From Onthophagus taurus (lineage: Eukaryota > Arthropoda > Insecta > Coleoptera > Scarabaeidae), in NCBI RefSeq assembly GCF_036711975.1, contig NC_091968.1, positions 16,182,001 through 16,246,000 of the forward strand: a stretch of DNA of 64,000 bases, read 5' to 3'. This document shows positions 21,281 through 38,960 of the stretch, one piece after another. A program made the position numbers and the translations under genes. The stretch's first letter is position 1; every line of letters begins with the position of its first letter. Below the pieces are notes generated by a model that saw only the letters and a program-made list of their open reading frames with translations, did not search any database and was not told the DNA's origin.

Positions 21281-23291
21281 CAGGCTGATTTATAACATAC
21301 GGAGGAGACTAAATGGGTAGGTACTTGAGGTCAAACTGAAGAGATTTTCTTAATAATGTTTTGTTAAAATCTTAATAGTTACATAGATATCGCATGTTAA
21401 TTTTTTAAATAAGTTAGCGTCAACTTTTGAGAACCGCTGATATTCACTAAAGAACAATTAAAATACTTGTCAACGCCGTCCTCATTTTTGAAGGAGTTGT
21501 CAAAGTAGACAATTTAATTGTTTAGTTTTAATACGTAATTTATGAAAAGAAATAATAGATGTTAATTTATGAAACGGATAATAATAATGTTTTAAATGCA
21601 AAATTACAAAATCTCTAAAACAAGAAAATAACATGTATGTATGTATGTAGAGAGAGGGGTGCGTAATTTTTACGCGCACTTAGGCCCCAGCGGGCCCCTT
21701 GTGCATACTCCCTTGGAGGCTCGAGATGGTAGAGAAGATCTCGTTAGGTGAAGAAAATAACATAATAATAATAATAATCTCTATATAACATATGTTCAAA
21801 GTGCTGTCCTTGCATTTCGACGCACAACTGCGCACGACGAATCCAATTTAACGATAATCGTGGAAATCGTGGACATATGTCCTCTGCAGTGATGCGATGT
21901 CGTAGTTCGTCGATTGTATTAACCTCGGTGGCATATACTCTATCCTTCATGAATCCCCATAAAAAAAAGTCCAATGGGTTAAGATCGGGACTACGTGGTG
22001 GCCATGGAATAGGTCCACCTGGACCAATCCATTTTTGCCGAAAAGCATTATCGAGGAAATCTCGTACATTACGACTAAAATGTGCAGGACAACCGTCGTG
22101 CATAAACCACATCTCACGTCGCATAAGTAGCGGAATATCTTCCAGGAGTACTGGCAGATTTTCTTGTAAAATCTGTAAATAAGAAGTTCCATTAAGAGTT
22201 CCTGGTAATTCGAAAGGTCCTATTAACGTATTGTTCACAATTCCCGCCCATAGATTCACTCTGAATCGTTGTTGAAAAGAGCCTTGACAAATAACGTGTG
22301 GATTTTCGTCCGACCACACATGGGAATTGTGAACATTTAGAACACCATTTCTGGTAAAACAGCATTCATCCGTTACCAGTATACTGTCCGCAAAATCTGC
22401 TTCTCTGTTGGTACGATTTAGTAGCCACTCGCAAAATTGCAACCGCAAAGGATAGTCAGCGGGAGTCAGTCCTTGCACTTTTTGAAAATGATAGGGGTGT
22501 AAACCGTTACTTTTCAACGTACGCCAAACAAAATTCTGGGATACCTCGAGTTGGTGAGAAATTTGACGAGTACTCGTGCTTCGATCCGCTTCCACAATTT
22601 CTAGAATTTCTTCTTCCACATTCACTCCATGTCTGTTTAGTCTACCGCCACCAAGACCTTTCTTAGGTTGCAAATTTCCTGTCTCTCTTCCCCGCTGGAT
22701 TAACCGAAGAAAAGTGTTTTCAGAAGGGATCTGTCGATTTGGATATCGTTCTAAATGACGATACAGACGTCTTGCGCGTGCAGCGTTTTCTCCAGCAGCT
22801 CCATAAATAATAAGCATATCTACGTATTCTTCGTTACTGTACATTACCATTGTATTTTTTGATTAGTAAAAATTCTAATTTTGACGTTAAATGACATTGA
22901 TTATTAAAATTAAATGACATGTCCGTTGCTAGGTAACCAAGTCAACTGGATTGACAGCAATAAAAACATGGTATCAGCGGTTCTCAAAAAACAAACACCA
23001 GTTTTTGAGTGATTTAACAAATTTTTAAATAGCCGTAACTGCCATATTACAAAGATTTTATTATTGGTGCTAATCAGGCATTGCTTAAGTAACCCCGAAA
23101 TATTCGCAGTTTGAATTTAAACGTAGTGTAATACCGTATATCGTAAGAAATGCTGGGCAATTAATTCAACTTTAATGCTCTATATCTTTGTGATTATTAC
23201 GTTGTAGTCAAAACATTATTAAGAAATTATCTCCAGTTTGGCCCCTAGTACTTGCTCTTTTAATCTGCTCCGTATGTTATAAATCACCCTG
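21281..23291 (-). mobile_element. Mariner element with DD41D transposase, probably recently active
   Basis: The terminal repeats CAGGCTGATTTATAACATAC and its inverse GTATGTTATAAATCACCCTG are flanked by TA. Sub-terminal sequence on both sides shares GAGAACCGCTGAT-type and ATTAAGAAA blocks in inverse orientation. The element contains one uninterrupted transposase frame on the minus strand. Length is 2011 bp. Confidence 0.85.
21744..22850 (-). CDS. Mariner-family transposase, DD41D type, full length
   Basis: The enzyme cuts and rejoins DNA at TA sites. The 368-residue frame shows an N-terminal DUF4817-like helical DNA-binding segment (NEEYVDMLIIYGAAGENAA), a second helix-turn-helix (TSTRQISHQLEVSQNFVW), and the catalytic core: first Asp in ILVTDECCF, second in MHDGCPAHFS, third in SPDLNPLDFFLWG. 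I count 41 residues between the second and third Asp (the D of PLD), so this is DD41D rather than the classic mariner DD34D; rosa-type mariners have this spacing. All three catalytic residues and the reading frame are intact. The C-terminus ends in a run of Tyr (YYYYY) from a TAA/TAT microsatellite, which probably extended the frame past its original stop. Confidence 0.92.
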   Translation of the reverse strand: MVMYSNEEYVDMLIIYGAAGENAARARRLYRHLERYPNRQIPSENTFLRLIQRGRETGNLQPKKGLGGGRLNRHGVNVEEEILEIVEADRSTSTRQISHQLEVSQNFVWRTLKSNGLHPYHFQKVQGLTPADYPLRLQFCEWLLNRTNREADFADSILVTDECCFTRNGVLNVHNSHVWSDENPHVICQGSFQQRFRVNLWAGIVNNTLIGPFELPGTLNGTSYLQILQENLPVLLEDIPLLMRREMWFMHDGCPAHFSRNVRDFLDNAFRQKWIGPGGPIPWPPRSPDLNPLDFFLWGFMKDRVYATEVNTIDELRHRITAEDICPRFPRLSLNWIRRAQLCVEMQGQHFEHMLYRDYYYYYVIFFT

Positions 23292-24487
23292 TATAAACCT
23301 TGGCTCACCCTCATATTTTTTTTTATTATTAGTGATATAGGAAAACCATTTGGAATGCATAGTCAGACCGTTAAAACGGATTATTACGACATGAAATCAT
23401 TCTCTTTGCACTTCCGGTTATACCGGATGTGAGTACTAATTTCGCTATTTTTTAAAATCTATAATTCTTTTTTCAGTTGGGTAGATTGCATAATTTCACA
23501 TAACTTTTACTTGAAAAAATTTTTACGATCGCTTATAATTTTTGAAAAAAAAATTATTTTCGTTATTTTTTAACGTTTTAGTACCTTCAGAAAATGTATT
23601 ACAACTTTTGACGCATAGTAGCTAGGTTAATAGTATAAACTACGTTATGTTCCTCTTGATTTGCTATTTCTCGAGCAGTGATCACAATGGATATTGTACA
23701 TTGTAAGTTACTATCAGCTACAGAACATTTAGTGTAAAAGAACAAAAAATAAAGAAAAGAAATAAAAAATCAAAAATAATTGAATTAAACCTAATTGTTT
23801 GATCGCGTTTTTTTTGTTAAAATTAATTTAATACAACTATTAATTTATACCATTATTAAAAAGGAACCACTGACTAAAGTATAGCAACAGTGATCACTGC
23901 TCGAGAAATAGCAAATCAAGAGGGACATAGCGTAGTTTATACTATTAACCTAGCTACTATCCGTCAAAAGTTGTAATACGTTTTCAAGTAAAAGTTATGT
24001 GAAATTATGCTGTCTACCCAACAGAAGAAAAAAAAATTATAGATATAAAAAAATAGCGAAGTTAGTACTCACATCCGGTATAACCGGAAGTACAAAGAGA
24101 ATGATTTCATGTCGTGATAATCCGTTTTAACAGCCTAATTATGCATTTCAAATGGTTTTCTTATATCACTAATAATAAAAAAAACATAGGGGTGAGCCAC
24201 TTCTCAGGGACACTCGGTATACATTTTTTTATGTCGTTGAAGTTAGCAACGGATTCAGAAACGAAATTCACATTTTTACAGCGGACCAAACAAATAGTGT
24301 ACTCTATCTATAATTTCGTATTTATTAGTGATAATAACCAAAAAACATCAAAATTAGCATTAAAGAGAGTAAAATAGATAACCCCTCTAAAACTTTCAAG
24401 TAAAATTCATTATTATTACATAAAAATCACCCTTTCATTATGTGAAAAACTCCAATTTGCATTGAAAAAGCTTGATGATCCATTAAG

Positions 24488-25730
24488 TCAACCCCAAATA
24501 TCAAAATCACTATTTCGAATAACATATCTAAGCACCACCCGGAAATTCAGGGGATAAAGGGTCGAAATCACCCCCGAAATACGTAAAAAATTCATAACTT
24601 TCTTGACAAATTTTGTGACACCACCAAACTCAGTCCAAAGATCGAAAATAAGGTTTCGAATAACATATCCGCGAGATTCGCGGAAATTCAGGGGATAAGG
24701 GGTCGAAATCACCCCCGAAATACGTAAAAAATTCATAACTTTCTTGAAAAATTTTGTGACACCACCAAACTCAGTCCAAAGATCGAAAATAAGGTTTCGA
24801 ATAACATATCCGCGAGATTCGCGGAAATTCAGGGGATAAGGGGTCGAAATCACCCCCGAAATACGTAAAAAATTCATAACTTTCTTGACAAATTTTGTGA
24901 CACCACCAAACTCAGTCCAAAGATCGAAAATAAGGTTTCGAATAACATATCCGCGAGATTCGCCGAAATTCAGGGGATAAGGGGTCGAAATCACCCCCGA
25001 AATACGTAAAAAATTCATAACTTTCTTGACAAATTTTGTGACACCACCAAACTCAGTCCAAAGATCGAAAATAAGGTTTCGAATAACATATCCGCGAGAT
25101 TCGCCGAAATTCAGGGGATAAGGGGTCGAAATCACCCCCGAAATACGTAAAAAATTCATAACTTTCTTGACAAATTTTGTGACACCACCAAACTCAGTCC
25201 AAAGATCGAAAATAAGGTTTCGAATAACATATCCGCGAGATTCGCGGAAATTCAGGGGATAAGGGGTCGAAATCACCCCCGAAATACGTAAAAAATTCAT
25301 AACTTTCTTGACAAATTTTGTGACACCACCAAACTCAGTCCAAAGATCGAAAATAAGGTTTCGAATAACATATCCGCGAGATTCGCCGAAATTCAGGGGA
25401 TAAGGGGTCGAAATCACCCCCGAAATACGTAAAAAATTCATAACTTTCTTGACAAATTTTGTGACACCACCAAACTCAGTCCAAAGATCGAAAATAAGGT
25501 TTCGAATAACATATCCGCGAGATTCGCCGAAATTCAGGGGATAAGGGGTCGAAATCACCCCCGAAATACGTAAAAAATTCATAACTTTCTTGACAAATTT
25601 TGTGACACCACCAAACTCAGTCCAAAGATCGAAAATAAGGTTTCGAATAACATATCCGCGAGATTCGCCGAAATTCAGGGGATAAGGTGTCGAAATCACC
25701 CCCGAAATACGTAAAAAATTCATAACTGAT
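24488..25730 (-). repeat. Left arm: nine tandem copies of a 141-bp unit
   Basis: Marker TTCATAACT recurs at 24591 and then every 141 bp to 25719. Copies are almost identical and differ mainly at one site (GCGGAAATTC versus GCCGAAATTC); the outermost is diverged (CACCACCCGGAAATTC). Each unit holds the small palindrome CCGCGAGATTCGCGG. Because 141 is a multiple of three, a 47-residue repeat stays open on the minus strand (445 codons); I regard this as a by-product. Confidence 0.9.
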
Positions 25731-25736
25731 TTTATC

Positions 25737-27023
25737 TTGGGACAATATTCATATAATGGACAAACGATTTCATTAAGTAGCTCTGACTTTAGAACGTTAA
25801 TATCAACCGAAAACATGGGTTGCAATAATCTGCAACCTATGTGTTCATGGGTTGCAGATTATTGCATAGATTCTCTGGCATTTACTTTTTTTAAAGACCG
25901 CGAAGACATTTATTACATCGACACAATATCCGTCCAAATTTTGCTTTCAGATCAGATAAAGAATCTGTCTAAATTTTTACCTTTTACAAAATCACTTAAA
26001 GGAGTCCGTTTTATTCTGTTGCCCCACAATTGTAACAACAATCACTGGATATTAATTATATTAGATTTGACTACTAACTCTATTTGTATTTTGAATCCTG
26101 GTAAATATTATCGTATATCACACGAGGAAATTGTAAAAAAGGTTAAAAGACTATTTTCCACTAGAGACCGTCTATACCTACACGAAGACAAACTAAATGC
26201 TAGGAAGTGGAAACTAACAACAATAGCATATCCTACCCAAGAGACTGAAGATTCAATCAATTGTGGAGTCTATGTTATATGGTATATGATGGTTTTGCAA
26301 AAAAATGAAACACTGCAATATTTGTCAACATCATTATTACAAAGTAATTTTTATCCTGACCTTTTCAGAATTTCTTTACAAAATGTTTTATTACTGTCAT
26401 CTGACGTTATGTATGATAAATGTTTTAAATGTGGTATAGGATCACAGGAAAACTATAAACTAGTAGGCTGCAACTTATGTAACAGATGGTTACATATAGA
26501 TCGTTGCTCGAACATATCTAATCTAATTTCTATAGATACCATTAAACTTCGCAACTTTGTTTATAGTTGCCCATTATGTCAACACTATAAACCAGGTTTA
26601 TTCAACACATCAAGTACAATTAAAAATGTTGCGTTGGATAATATGTCTCTAAAATATTTTGTGATTCATTACAAAAACGAGTTACAAGAAATATACAATA
26701 CGAGGGACACAAACGATTTTTGTGAGCGGTACCGCTCTGTTAATAAACCAGAGTACCATTTGAAATGGGATATGTCAACTCCGTTTATATCATTTAGTGC
26801 GGCAGTCTATATATGTAGAAAGATAATGTCAACAACCAATATACCAGACAAGACATTTGTGAAATATGTTCTTCTGGGATTTCTGAATTTAAAAATTATA
26901 CGTAAATATTACGGAATGAACGATGAAGCAAGCTTCTTTGAGCAATATAAAACGCTTTATGATATTACGGATAGGGATCATGTTTATCCAGATCACTACA
27001 CATTAGACCAAATTCAGTTTTAA
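25737..27023 (+). CDS. Ulp1/SENP-like (C48) cysteine peptidase fused to a PHD finger
   Basis: Ulp1-type peptidases remove SUMO or related modifiers; PHD fingers often read histone tails. The frame is open from about 25690; the first ATG is 25815, but residues upstream (SLSSSDFRTLIS) already fit a Ulp1 N-terminus, so the start may be spliced or lost. Counting from 25737: WVADYCID near 39-45; His103 in NNHWILIILD; an Asn (120, ILNPG) where Asp is usual; Gln168 in PTQ; catalytic Cys176 in SINCGVYVIWYM. A C4HC3 PHD finger follows (C229, C232, C245, C248, H253, C257, C278, C281). The last 140 residues (SLKYFVIHYKNELQEIYNTR onward) are unrecognised. There are no stops. It sits alone in the loop between the inverted arrays. 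Confidence 0.8.
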   Translation: MGQYSYNGQTISLSSSDFRTLISTENMGCNNLQPMCSWVADYCIDSLAFTFFKDREDIYYIDTISVQILLSDQIKNLSKFLPFTKSLKGVRFILLPHNCNNNHWILIILDLTTNSICILNPGKYYRISHEEIVKKVKRLFSTRDRLYLHEDKLNARKWKLTTIAYPTQETEDSINCGVYVIWYMMVLQKNETLQYLSTSLLQSNFYPDLFRISLQNVLLLSSDVMYDKCFKCGIGSQENYKLVGCNLCNRWLHIDRCSNISNLISIDTIKLRNFVYSCPLCQHYKPGLFNTSSTIKNVALDNMSLKYFVIHYKNELQEIYNTRDTNDFCERYRSVNKPEYHLKWDMSTPFISFSAAVYICRKIMSTTNIPDKTFVKYVLLGFLNLKIIRKYYGMNDEASFFEQYKTLYDITDRDHVYPDHYTLDQIQF

Positions 27024-27102
27024 GTACAATACTTATTTATATATACAATTATTATTATACACCCTTTATCAACATAATTTCCGCGCGTCTCATAGATAAT
27101 AT

Positions 27103-27837
27103 ATGTTATTGGAATTCGATCTCTGGGCTGAGTTTGGTGGTGTCACAAAATTTGTCAAGAAAGTTATGAATTTTTTACGTATGTCGGGGGTGATTTCGAC
27201 CCCTTATCCCCTGAATTTCGGCGAATCTCGCGGATATGTTATTCGAAACCTTATTTTCGATCTTTGGACAGAGTTTGGTGGTGTCACAAAATTTGTCAAG
27301 AAAGTTATGAATTTTTTACGTATTTCGGGGGTGATTTCGACCCCTTATCCCCTGAATTTCCGCGAATCTCGCGGATATGTTATTCGAAACCTTATTTTCG
27401 ATCTTTGGACAGAGTTTGGTGGTGTCACAAAATTTGTCAAGAAAGTTATGAATTTTTTACGTATTTCGGGGGTGATTTCGACCCCTTATCCCCTGAATTT
27501 CCGCGAATCTCGCGGATATGTTATTCGAAACCTTATTTTCGATCTTTGGACTGAGTTTGGTGGTGTCACAAAATTTGTCAAGAAAGTTATGAATTTTTTA
27601 CGTATTTCGGGGGTGATTTCGACCCCTTATCCCCTGAATTTCCGCGAATCTCGCGGATATGTTATTCGAAACCTTATTTTCGATCTTTGGACTGAGTTTG
27701 GTGGTGTCACAAAATTTTTCAAGAAAGTTATGAATTTTTTACGTATTTCGGGGGTGATTTCGACCCTTTATCCCCTGAATTTCCGGGTGGTGCTTAGATA
27801 TGTTATTCGAAATAGTGATTTTGATATTTGGGGTTGA
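27103..27837 (+). repeat. Right arm: five tandem copies of the 141-bp unit
   Basis: Inverted relative to the left arm. The marker AAGTTATGAA recurs at 27161 and every 141 bp to 27725. The outermost unit is diverged in the same way as the left outermost (TTCCGGGTGGTGCT). The first inner copy reads ATGTCGGGGG where others read ATTTCGGGGG. The open 244-codon frame is the same 47-residue repeat. Confidence 0.9.
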
Positions 27838-28109
27838 CTTAATGGATCATCAAGCTTTTTCAATGCAAATTGGAGTTTTTCACATAATGAAAGGGTGATT
27901 TTTATGTAATAATAATGAATTTTACTTGAAAGTTTTAGAGGGGTTATCTATTTTACTCTCTTTAATGCTAATTTTGATGTTTTTTTGGTTGTTATCACTA
28001 ATAAATACGAAATTATAGATAGAGTACACTATTTGTTTGGTCCGCTGTAAAAATGTGAATTTCGTTTCTGAATCCGTTGCTAACTTCAACGACATAATTT
28101 TTTTGCACT

Positions 28110-28625: not shown

Positions 28626-29678
28626 ATGGGTGAACGTAAAGGAACCAACAAATATTACCCTCCGGATTACGATCCCAAAGCTGGAGGTTTAAACAAATGG
28701 CAAGGTACACATGCTTTAAGAGAAAGAGCCCGGAAAATCTCTCAAGGGATAATAATAATTCGTTTTGAAATGCCGTACAATATCTGGTGCGAAGGTTGTA
28801 ATAATCACATTGGAATGGGCGTTAGATACAACGCTGAAAAAACCAAAGTGGGAATGTACTACACCACACCTGTTTATCAATTCAAAATGAAATGCCACCT
28901 TTGTGACAATCACTTTGTAATTAAAACCGATCCTGGAAATTTGGATTATATAATTTTATCAGGGGCAAGACGGCAAGAGAATCGATGGGATCCTTTAAAG
29001 AACGAACAAATTGTACCAGAGACAAAAGAAGTACAAAAAAGACTTTTTGATGATTCCATGTTTAAATTGGAACATCAAAGCGACGATAAAAGTATTGCAG
29101 AAAGTACAAAACCACGATTAGCAAAATTATTTTCTAGAAATGAAGACGTTTGGGGCGATGTTTACACAGCTAATCAAAAATTAAGGGGGGAATTTAGAAA
29201 GAAATCCGCTGAGATAAAAAAGAATTACATGGCAGATAAAAATATCTTATCTAAATATGGTTTAAACATCCCTTTATTACCTGAAAAAGAGGAAGATGAA
29301 AGAATTGCATCTTTATTATGTATGAAATTGACACCAAGTAAAGATATTAAAGAAACCACCGAAATTGCTAGGAAAGAGATTATAAGTCGTTCATCGTTAC
29401 CGACAAGTAATTTTAATAATTTAAAAGAACAAAAAGCTTTGAAGATTCTTAATAATGATTCGTTTAAATTATTGGGACTTGTTCGTAAATCTAGTCAAAA
29501 GATTGATTCAAAAACATCTAATGATCAAAGTTCTACGAGTTTAACGCAAAAAGATCCCGTAGAAGTTCCTGCGAAAAAAAGTAAAACTGATCAAGTCAAT
29601 GTTGATGCAAAATCTATGAAGCAAAAATCTTTGGTGGGATATGAATGTGAAAGTAGCGAATCGGAAACTGCAGATTAA
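28626..29678 (+). CDS. YJU2B: YJU2B (CCDC130) splicing-factor homologue, CWC16 family
   Basis: CWC16 proteins (Yju2, CCDC94, CCDC130) act with the spliceosome in the nucleus. The 350-residue product starts MGERKGTNKYYPPDYDP, the hallmark of the CCDC130 branch, followed by LRERARKISQGIIIIRFEMP and a four-Cys metal site (C55, C58 in WCEGCNNHIGMGVRYNAEK; C90, C93 in MKCHLCDNHF). The basic/acidic C-terminus (Lys/Ser-rich, ending ESSESETAD) is typical and variable. The ATG follows an AACATTAAAAATG context. The gene is one uninterrupted exon, with AATAAATAAA poly-A signals at about 29702. It stands between two large palindromic transposons and shows no damage. Length is close to family norm (human about 400). 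Confidence 0.95.
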   Translation: MGERKGTNKYYPPDYDPKAGGLNKWQGTHALRERARKISQGIIIIRFEMPYNIWCEGCNNHIGMGVRYNAEKTKVGMYYTTPVYQFKMKCHLCDNHFVIKTDPGNLDYIILSGARRQENRWDPLKNEQIVPETKEVQKRLFDDSMFKLEHQSDDKSIAESTKPRLAKLFSRNEDVWGDVYTANQKLRGEFRKKSAEIKKNYMADKNILSKYGLNIPLLPEKEEDERIASLLCMKLTPSKDIKETTEIARKEIISRSSLPTSNFNNLKEQKALKILNNDSFKLLGLVRKSSQKIDSKTSNDQSSTSLTQKDPVEVPAKKSKTDQVNVDAKSMKQKSLVGYECESSESETAD

Positions 29679-35731: not shown

Positions 35732-38700
35732 AAATTGTGTGTATATATGTATCGCCTATGTTCGCCCGTATATCGGTTTGAAGTAGGGATGGCCACGATG
35801 TATCGATGTTATAAAAATATCGATTTTTTCGTTTCGATGTTCGATGTTTTAAATCGATATTTTTTCTTGCGATTATATCGGTATATATCGATATTTCATT
35901 CGATATATTATTCGATGTTTTATTCGATGTTTTATTTGATATATTATTCGATATTTCATTCGATATATTATTCGATGTTTTATTCGATATATTATTCGAT
36001 GTTTTATTCGATATATTATTCGATGTTTTATTCGATATATTATTCAATGTTTTATTTACTATTTTATTTAATGCTTTATTCGATATAAGTACATATTATT
36101 TGATGTTTTATTAGATATTTTATTCGATGTTGCAATTTTCTAAAAAGTTTAAACCGTTTGAGGTTATTTTTAATAATAATCGTTATAATTGATTCGTTTA
36201 TTATAACTGGAAAAGATTGTTGGTGGTTCAAGAAATTATGAATAACCTCAAACCTGTCTATTCCTGTCTAGGATCGAGTGAATCAGCGTCGATTTTTATA
36301 CCAATACGGGCTGTGATTGCGGTTATACATTGTGAGCTGTGGTAGTCTATCGATCGAGACGATAGTCTAGTCGTCTAGAGCTCATGTTAGTGGTGTCGTG
36401 ATTGTCGTGAATATACGTTAAAACAGTATTGCTAATATTATTATTTACTTTCCGATAGAACGATTTAGTAAACTGAGAAGGCGATTGATTTTAAAAATAT
36501 GGCACCACCAAAAAGTGTAGTTTGGAAACACTTTAACAAAACAAAAGACGGATATGCGGTGTGTCGTTACTGTGAAAAAAAAAATAAAAACATCAGGTAA
36601 CACCACAAATTTGATAAGGCATCTCAATAGATTACACAAAACTATAATGAAGAAAAGTGTTGAACAATTGGGATCTGAAGAAACGATGGATATATGTTCA
36701 GAAAGTGATCTTCCTGGAACTTCTCAACAAGATTCTGATGAAAGTCGGCCATCGTCGGCAAGTGCAGTTACAACTTATACAAATTACATGCGTCAATCAT
36801 TAATTACGAAAAATTTTCAAGAGATTAAATCTTTTGGAGAAGGTGGCGAAAAATTTAATGCCATTACAAATTCTATTTTATTTATGATTTGTAAAGACAT
36901 GCAGCCATTCAGTATTGTGGAATCTGAAGGTTTTAGACAATTAATGAAACTTGTTGTGCACCAATACAAAATACCTAGCCGACAAACTTTAACGCGAAGG
37001 CTAGATGCAAAGTATGACTCTCTGGAGTCAGTTGTTAAGGTAAAGTTATCATTTGTAGACAGTGTTGCAATTACGACTGATATTTGGAGTGATACTATGC
37101 AAACCCGAAGTTTCCTGGGAATCACAGTGCACTACGCAAGTGATGGCAAAATGTTTTCCTTTACTTTAGGAGTTTGTGATCTAGAACATCGCCATACAGC
37201 AGAGTATTTAGCCGAAAAATTAATGGAAACGTGCAATCAGTGGAACATTCCAAAAGAAAAAATTACTGCAGTTGTAACCGATAATGGGGCTAACATAGTT
37301 AAAGCAGTACACATAGCATTTGGGAAACATGTTCACATGGCTTGTTGTGCACATACATTAAACTTGGTGGCTGAAAAATCTATTGACAATACGGGAACTT
37401 TAAAAGGATTGATTGGTAAAGTAAAGTTAATCGTTACGTGGTTTAAACACAGTATTGTTGCAAGTGATGAATTAAGAAGACGGTCACCAAAAAAACTTAT
37501 TCAAGAAGTTCCAACTAGATGGAATTCAAAATATTACATGCTAAAACGATTCTTGGAACTAAGATCTATTATTAATGAAATAATTAGTAATCACATTAGT
37601 GCACCGGCTATGGTAACCGCATTTGAAACTCAAGAAATAGAAGAAGTTACAAGACTGTTGCAACCCTTAGAAGTTGCAACAAAAGAACTTTGCGGTGAAA
37701 ATTATGTAACTGCCAGCAAAATTATTCCAATGATACATTGTTTAAGTAAAAAAATTTCTGAAATGAGTTCTAGTTTGCAGATAGCAAAAGATCTACAAAA
37801 ATCTTTAACATTAGAAATTAACTAACGATTTGGTAATGTTGAAGAGATACGTTTGATGGCTGTATCAACAATTTTAGATCCTAGATTTAAAAAAATACTC
37901 TTTCAAAACTTAACAGCATGTTCAACAGCTGTTGAGCATCTAGAAACAATTGTAAAATCACTGACATCACCATTAGCTGCAGAACAAATTGCGCCTGTAG
38001 GTTCTCATCACATTCCTGACGAAGGTAAAGTTTTTAATTAAATCCGATTAGATTAATTACTTTTTTTTTGTTTTTAGATGAAGAATTTAATTTATGGAGT
38101 CAGCATCACGTAATGGTAGAAAAAATGAATAACAGCAACAACGATGGCACTTCAGAGATAGCGCATTATCTCAAATGCCCATTAAAGAAATTTGAACAAA
38201 ATCCCTTACAATTATGGGACGATATTAAAGGAATTTGCCCAACATTGGCCAAAATTGCCCCAAAATACCTAAGCATACCAGCCACATCGGTTCCATCAGA
38301 AAGGGTGTTTTCAAAAGCCGGTCAAGTTTTGACGCAACAGCGAAGCAGGCTTAAAGGAAAACGCTTATCAAAACTTTTATTTTTAAATTCTTGTGATGAA
38401 TTATTTTTTTAGTTTTATTCCATTCTGTTATTCTTGTTTAGTAGATTTAGTAGATAATGTAGATATCTTTTGTTGTTGGTATTAAAAATGTTCAGTTTAT
38501 TTTAATAAAATGATTTAAAAATGTATAGATACATTTTACTTAAAAAAAAAATCAAATAAAAGACATCGATGTTTTTTATATCGAGTAAAACAGCGAATAG
38601 ATCGAATAAAACATCGAATAATATGTACTCATATCGAATAAAGCATTAAATACTACAGCAAATAAAACATTGAATAATATATCGAATAAAACATCGAAAA

Positions 38701-38960
38701 ACATCGATGTTTTTTATTCGATGTTTTTGTCATATCGATATTGCACGTTCGATATATCAAATGATGTAAACATCGATGTTTCATATTTTTTGGCTATCCC
38801 TAGTTTGAAGCCAACGCAAGAGCATTTGTTTGGAAACAAAATTGACCTTGGTCCTTGCGAATGTGGCGTGTACGATTTAGATGAAATTGGTCGGACTTTA
38901 TGCAGTGGCGTATCCAAAGAGAATCCTAATGTCTTATATAAAATTACAATTAAAAATTAA
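35732..38960 (+). CDS. Unidentified terminal exon split by a hAT insertion (35732-35783 + 38811-38960)
   Basis: A pyrimidine tract and AG (CTTTTTTTTAACTTTATCAAAG, ends 35731) precede an open frame that runs into the hAT element at 35784. Directly after the duplicated target (38803-38810) the same frame continues to a TAA at 38958. Text includes YICIAYVRPYIGLKP on the left and QEHLFGNKIDLGPCECGVY and CSGVSKENPNVLYKI on the right. Cys spacing suggests a secreted or ectodomain tail. I do not recognise the family, and no upstream exon is linked. If the gene is real, this allele is interrupted by 3 kb. Confidence 0.4.
35865..36135. repeat. Left sub-terminal TTCGAT repeat array of the hAT element
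   Basis: About 15 near-tandem copies of a 12-14-bp unit with core ATTCGAT; a mirrored set lies at 38575-38780. Probable transposase-binding sites. The open frames across it (poly NISNKTS-type on the minus strand) are low-complexity artefacts. Confidence 0.75.
36499..38412 (+). pseudogene. hAT transposase (BED finger, RNase H-like core, dimerisation domain)
   Basis: Cut-and-paste transposase. The ATG at 36499 starts MAPPKSVVWKHFNKTKDGYA, a BED zinc finger (VCRYCEKK ... LIRHLNRLHK). A run of ten A at about 36575, where nine would keep the frame, shifts it. The main frame then runs to 37822, with the RNase H-like core (SVAITTDIWSDTMQTRSFLG, CCAHTLNLVAEKS, VPTRWNSKYYMLKR). A single TAA at 37823 interrupts it and the same frame resumes (STILDPRFKKILF). 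A 53-bp intron (38025 GTAAAG to TTTTTAG 38077) leads to the exon with the hATC dimerisation domain (IPATSVPSERVFSKAGQVL, LLFLNS) and the stop at 38412. Only two small lesions separate it from an intact gene; the homopolymer one could be a sequencing error. Confidence 0.92.

Follow-up and report, generated by a model that had tools for sequence, protein, structure and literature searches.

Several of the published transposons closest to the element described here combine foldback ends, or a peptidase and a zinc finger, with a transposase. Mutator-like foldback elements (Phantom, and Tm1 of root-knot nematodes) have foldback ends, 9-bp target duplications, a DDE-type transposase and non-autonomous derivatives (PMC3169594). 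In Ginger1-9_HM of Hydra a Ulp1-type peptidase and a PHD finger lie at the C-terminus of the transposase, and a figure legend in the paper presents both domains aligned for Ginger1 and Mutator transposases; plant Mutator-like elements (MULEs) with ULP genes, in which a Ulp1-type peptidase lies inside a MULE-type transposon, are cited there as well (PMC2836005). We have analyzed a foldback element within a 64-kb stretch of DNA (the window) from contig C3 of the 290.8-Mb assembly of the beetle Onthophagus taurus. Its loop encodes a Ulp1-type peptidase and a PHD-like zinc finger. We are confident that it belongs to a young family of cut-and-paste foldback transposons related to Rehavkus and Mutator, of which it is an internally deleted, non-autonomous copy.

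Architecture of the element and its loop protein

The element occupies positions 24231-28095 of the window (3,865 bp), with inverted arms that are 99% alike. An inverted-repeat search of the window pairs 24340-25210 with 27115-27985 over 871 nt and, at the outer ends, 24229-24345 with 27981-28097 over 117 nt, both at 99%. Each arm consists of an outer, unrepeated stretch of about 310 bp and, inside it, an array of a 141-bp unit. The arrays (Table 1) were also counted as nine (left) and five (right) overlapping copies in the repeat listing. The sequence ATTTTTTT is present on both flanks, where 8 of the 9 bp of a target duplication agree. Long inverted arms of tandem units enclosing a loop fit the foldback structural class. 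The initial annotation had recognized the mirrored arms, the nine versus five copies of the unit and the single open loop frame, all of which are borne out; its span of 24223..28104 contains the element and takes in the 8-bp duplication as well. Frames of 445 and 244 aa run through the arms, and are taken to be a by-product of the 141-bp unit (47 codons) being free of stops in one frame.

The loop frame is 445 aa long from stop to stop, its 5' codons being read from the array. The earliest ATG is at 25815, inside the conserved region, and 402 codons are open from there. The C48 domain of the window protein scored 27.3 bits in Pfam (cut-off 20.7) and the PHD finger 15.3 bits, under its cut-off of 24, as it was in every single protein scanned. 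Compared with PDB sequences, the window protein alone gave weak matches, the best being to MLL PHD (E 0.024), with no match to Ulp1. A family profile of seven sequences (a full-length sister copy and the six database relatives P0001-P0006 described below, leaving out the window copy) matched SENP5 (1.5e-7), yeast Ulp1 (4.1e-6) and MLL PHD3 (3.5e-4). These matches indicate that the loop protein has C48 (Ulp1-type) and PHD-like domains, as the initial annotation had named them.

The catalytic positions of Ulp1 in the window are His (codon 26043), Gln (26238) and Cys (26262). The acid position is Asn (26094), as it is in P0001, P0003, P0004 and the full-length copy, and is Asp in P0005 and in L055, a diverged family of this genome. 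It aligns to the catalytic Asp of yeast Ulp1. The zinc-binding positions of the finger are present in the window copy.

Copies of the element in the genome

Searching the genome with the loop protein gave at least 106 matches (a lower bound, as 99 of 139 candidates were scored). Seven places match the whole of the 423 residues, or nearly so, at 98-100%, and the six near-full-length matches other than the window all have a transposase region upstream. This region is found at eight places in the genome at 98-100%, none of them in the window.

A genome search with the first 300 bp of one arm gave 52 matches; 19 are full-length (97-100%), and the other 33, weaker or partial, lie outside the analysis. 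Eighteen of the 19 pair into nine copies, including that in the window (the other eight are listed in Table 1). The 19th marks the right terminus of a copy at C7:28.79 Mb, which is left uncounted; its left end is not among the matches listed. This copy and the paired copy at C7:28.72 Mb share the same right flank and the same broken gene, and their right arrays seem to differ in length, judged by unequal offsets between gene and right end. The 9-bp target duplication is exact in four of the nine paired copies and agrees at 8 of 9 bp in two more, those in the window and on C6. The initial annotation's suggestion of a mobile unit is thus supported by searching the genome with arms and loop protein, which gives nine paired copies, with 9-bp duplications at other sites.

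Seven copies keep the whole gene region and span 6.9-13.3 kb. In each of the eight copies examined, Tandem Repeats Finder located 141-bp arrays in the left and the right arm, with lengths of 2.6-41.6 units (two copies being cut at one end of the sequence examined). This wide variation fits unequal exchange or slippage. The left end of the window element is identical over 264 bp to the right end found in the C7:28.72-Mb copy, and a copy's two outer ends are not in every case each other's nearest match. Exchange between copies may therefore have occurred. The shared coding part (about 1,290 aligned bases) diverges by 0.15-1.44% in the 28 pairs of eight copies. The family is a young, mobile foldback DNA transposon.

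Ulp1-family genes are ordinary host genes, and the loop might in principle be a host Ulp1-PHD gene that is flanked by repeats by chance. However, the best loop matches sit at different sites and on both strands, within the same arms and mostly with target duplications, and three of the five relatives from outside this genome are transposase fusions. We give a host gene practically no credence; it is ruled out by the copies at multiple sites in paired arms.

Degraded copies of the loop gene are found at C11 8.49-9.59 Mb and on C20, at a spacing of about 100-200 kb, as if within a large segmental or tandem repeat.

Origin of the window copy

In the seven whole-gene copies the left array ends near CACCACCAAA, ahead of a T-run (one base is changed in one copy). 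In the window the array breaks off in mid-unit at ...TTCATAACT, and is followed by GATTTTATC of the gene; the corresponding place in all seven copies reads TTTCCAAACTGATTTTATC. The four bases AACT are common to the array and gene sides of the junction. When up to two mismatches are allowed, a 30-bp sequence across the junction has a single match in the genome. In the alignment the window protein corresponds to the last, C-terminal third of a longer one, with homology that starts at TDFILGQYSYNG, exactly at the border between array and loop. The missing part was lost by a deletion between two AACT microhomologies that removed 3.7-4.1 kb (depending on the copy compared), comprising the 5' leader, the start codon and residues 1-994 with the transposase region. 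The deletion most likely arose from faulty gap repair after excision.

The locus had been annotated as an undescribed kind of foldback element, without a transposase, and the capture of Ulp1 peptidases by plant MULEs had been cited for comparison. Neither a type of element that lacks a transposase nor capture of the peptidase by the loop is supported. Near-identical copies carry a DDE-like region in the same frame that the window copy has lost by deletion, and what the loop encodes is the end of the transposase protein of the element itself. The peptidase and finger belong to the C-terminal third of that protein, and the same fusion is present in three of the five outside relatives. Host-gene capture in the manner of a Pack-MULE was also considered and rejected, as the loop frame belongs to the protein of the full-length element.

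A second deleted copy, C7:26676282-26680337, has lost a different part. It keeps the leader and the N-terminal part to about residue 415 and then rejoins at the stop codon, so that the DDE region, Ulp1 and PHD are absent (455 bases in the middle lie outside the sequence examined). Its 9-bp duplication is exact. Loss of different parts in different copies speaks against any particular function of the peptidase-PHD remnant.

We suggest that transposition is of the cut-and-paste type, and would be performed by the N-terminal part of the protein acting on the arms. The deleted window copy could then move only when a full-length copy supplies transposase to act on its arms.

The full-length protein and its relatives

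Four of the eight further paired copies have an open frame; two have one stop each, one is frame-broken and one has the different deletion. The open frames are of 1,436, 1,382, 1,380 and 1,324 codons with ATG at codon 13, giving proteins of 1,312-1,424 residues from the in-frame ATG. The order of domains in the open copies is finger, D-D-CxxH-E transposase region, Ulp1, PHD and C-terminal part, so that a single frame unites the transposase region, C48 and the PHD-like finger. In the longest protein (1,424 residues) these are D520, D594, CxxH at about 640 and E811, with Ulp1 at 1080-1188 and PHD at 1227-1277. Inspected by eye, the N-terminus starts with GRP, which is AT-hook-like, followed by a Cys/His finger. 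Seven sister copies, including L011 4937-9208, carry an N-terminal 56-residue repeat (168 bp) two to four times.

A search of sequence databases with the window protein gave two relatives, P0001 and P0002 (source label lgn), whose contigs measure 2.5 and 4.3 kb. This search limited the length of candidates, and was repeated using a longer query. That gave P0003 (810 aa, from the weevil Ceutorhynchus assimilis), P0004 (1,250 aa) and P0005 (772 aa), and an N-terminal query gave P0006 (776 aa). P0003 stops short of the finger, and P0006 stops short of the peptidase. The transposase fusion is present in three of the five outside relatives of the loop protein (P0003-P0005); the other two are fragments too short to extend to it. 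Among viral contigs, 157 stretches fit a pattern and none was confirmed as a relative.

The D-D-CxxH-E order, which we take to be that of the Mutator/MULE DDE core, was found in six of seven proteins examined, with the two D residues 73-74 apart and the E 212-222 residues past the second D. Three of these six proteins come from three families of this genome; P0005 does not extend to the first part of the region. Within the genome, L055 is 38% alike in the transposase region; its frame also includes C48, and behind this a PHD-like finger is visible by eye that was not listed by Pfam. L056 (C3:1638600-1641700, 1-2319) is 29% alike, and there the transposase region passes directly into a PHD-like finger (19.3 bits, cut-off 24), where the stretch ends.

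Some observations weigh against reading the window element as a deleted copy of a mobile family with a transposase of this type. The D-D-CxxH-E search patterns were composed after viewing the alignment. No Pfam transposase model matched any of seven proteins with the whole or part of the region (P0003-P0006, the full-length copy, L055 and L056), where HMMER leaves out most matches above about 0.1; the nearest Pfam match is a weak one, to ZSWIM1-3 RNaseH-like in P0006 (E 0.14). Nor did these scans, which were general and included no alignment to the Ginger1 core, match an integrase. The transposase region is likely to be of the DDE type, judged by the order of the motif and by conservation. A clear target duplication is wanting in three of the nine paired copies (5 of 9 bp at C1:19753928, 0 of 9 at C15:1613876 and 1 of 9 at C7:28717997), and that of the window is a T-run with one mismatch, which taken alone is weak.

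The open frame of the window copy

The open frame had been taken to imply selection or very recent spread. Compared with its nearest copy the window has four substitutions, of which three are private, together with a private in-frame insertion of 6 bp (about 26457-26462) in the PHD-like finger that is absent from all seven other copies compared. One private change converts Asn to Tyr, at a position that is Asp in outside relatives. In the frame from ATG 25815, 5.9% of single substitutions (215 of 3,618) create a stop, and with three substitutions it would stay open in about 83% of cases (0.941 cubed). With so few private changes and this rate of stops, an open frame is expected without selection. 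The comparison thus lends no support to selection on the remnant frame.

The open frame, in which catalytic and zinc-binding positions are kept, might instead mark a distinct kind of foldback element, whose sole cargo is a peptidase-PHD gene under selection and which is moved by an unrelated transposase. P0001 and P0002 show no transposase region, although both are from short contigs. Such an origin is extremely improbable given that the junction is found once and that the other near-full-length loop matches have the transposase region, while the 4-bp microhomology marks a deletion. The private changes are also too few for selection, and include the insertion in the finger and the change of Asn to Tyr. 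As the origin of the window copy this kind of element is refuted by the full-length sister copies and the AACT junction.

Repressors derived by deletion exist in other DNA transposons, KP in the P element being one example. Array or flanking DNA could provide a promoter for the truncated frame, and the short Ulp1-PHD protein could regulate the family in trans. The 402 codons open from ATG 25815, the His, Gln and Cys positions that are kept, and the location of the element 530 bp from the start of the Yju2/Saf4 frame would all suit this. However, the leader and native start are deleted and the first ATG is within the conserved region; moreover, the single occurrence of the junction and the private insertion in the finger speak against such a function, and we consider it very unlikely. 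Since the leader and start are missing, the peptidase-PHD frame of the internally deleted window copy is probably not translated as such, and would be a passenger remnant.

Possible role of the peptidase and finger

The peptidase and finger of full-length copies probably help the transposase, for example by removal of SUMO or by chromatin targeting at donor or target sites. A more specific proposal, which we regard as unlikely, is that the DDE-Ulp1-PHD fusion is a working counter-defence, in which the transposase would be led by the finger to chromatin that is marked, and silencing factors there would be stripped of SUMO by the peptidase. The fusion occurs in this family, in the weevil protein that keeps the peptidase, in other relatives, and in another family of this genome with transposase and peptidase. 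If the proposal were true, deletion copies such as that in the window would be natural separations of the peptidase-finger module from the transposase.

The window copy is an ordinary deletion derivative, and it is the family that is worth keeping. It is young, with four open full-length copies, hypervariable inverted arrays, and transposase, Ulp1 and PHD-like finger in one frame. It would be a good system for studying the contribution of a SUMO peptidase to a transposase, and the expansion of foldback arrays.

Table 1. Features of the foldback element in the window, and positions of the paired copies elsewhere in the genome.
Feature	Position	Strand	Evidence or remark
Left target-site duplication, CATTTTTTT	24222..24230	.	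8/9 bp match to right copy
Left terminal inverted repeat, outer unrepeated part, begins ATGTCGTTGAAG	24231..24541	+	Arm pairing, end comparison
Left array, 8.4 x 141-bp unit, broken mid-unit by the deletion	24542..25727	+	Tandem-repeat scan
Deletion junction, AACT common to array and gene	25724..25727	+	Comparison with sister copies
Open frame between two stops; remnant of the C-terminus of the transposase protein (residues 995-1424 in the 1,424-aa sister)	25686..27023	+	
Peptidase_C48 (Ulp1) match	25962..26306	+	Pfam, family profile
PHD-like zinc finger, contains private 6-bp insertion	26421..26579	+	Sub-cut-off in Pfam alone, significant as family profile
Conserved C-terminal part of transposase protein	26580..27020	+	Alignment; without Pfam match
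Right array, 4.8 x 141-bp unit, inverted	27115..27785	-	Tandem-repeat scan
Right terminal inverted repeat, outer part	27786..28095	-	
Right target-site duplication, AATTTTTTT	28096..28104	.	
Paired copy	C15:5891399-5904385		
Paired copy	C3:16039164-16049664		
Paired copy	C1:23370206-23383239		
Paired copy	C1:19753928-19767268		
Paired copy	C15:1613876-1620766		
Paired copy	C6:24052672-24061466		
Paired copy	C7:28717997-28726566		
Paired copy	C7:26676282-26680337		

Neighboring features in the window

To the left of the element, at about 23300-24221, is a high-copy palindromic repeat (213 genome matches for 23300-24230), whose right end, GGACACTCGGTATA, adjoins the 9-bp duplication of the foldback element. 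Beyond this, a 372-codon frame on the minus strand (21744-22862) has a Tc3-type helix-turn-helix above cut-off and DDE_3 below cut-off, and encodes a mariner-like transposase. An open Yju2/Saf4 gene of 350 codons (28626-29678) lies on the right side, 530 bp away from the element. Further right, inverted arrays of a 12-bp AT-rich unit (35888-36128 and 38580-38707) surround a hAT-type transposase gene in pieces (36521-37825 and 38038-38412), making this a second element in the window with mirrored minisatellites.

Comparison with known systems

The element can be likened by description to FB/NOF of Drosophila, which has inverted arms of tandem units and an internal gene. FB-NOF is reportedly non-autonomous, being called so in the title of a paper.

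The 9-bp target duplication, the PHD finger in the transposase protein and the tandem arrays in inverted termini described for Rehavkus (Rehavkus-1_TC, Tribolium; Repbase) are all found here, the finger being PHD-like. By its anatomy and published features the family thus fits the Rehavkus/Mutator-related foldback transposons; none of the six database proteins found (P0001-P0006) bears the name Rehavkus. The terminal inverted repeats (TIRs) of Rehavkus are given as 26-400 bp; here the outer part taken as the TIR, about 310 bp, would fall within this range, and the whole arm with its array, about 1 kb or more in the window, would exceed it. There are also differences. Rehavkus is described in the available excerpt as having a minisatellite before the 3' TIR (PMC6446971), whereas here there are arrays in both arms. 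The partial descriptions of Rehavkus to hand mention no Ulp1 domain, which the present family has. Membership of the Mutator superfamily is likely.

With Phantom and Tm1 the family has in common the foldback ends, 9-bp duplications, DDE-type transposase and non-autonomous derivatives. The Tm1-A transposase, of 496 aa, has FLYWCH and MULE matches in Pfam, and the part of the account consulted mentions neither Ulp1 nor PHD (PMC3169594); in the family here there is no Pfam MULE match. Ginger1 has a core of the Gypsy-integrase type and TIRs of 44-270 bp, and the portion of the paper at hand mentions no arrays (PMC2836005), which are present here. In the plant MULEs with ULP genes, as cited in that paper, the peptidase lies inside the transposon; here Ulp1 follows the transposase region in one frame, and there are foldback arrays in addition. 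A C-terminal Ulp1 and PHD, as in this family, are reported in that same paper for Ginger1 and for animal Mutator transposases of Hydra and lancelet. The association of Ulp1 and PHD in animal transposases is therefore already published, and the foldback family of Onthophagus taurus adds another case.

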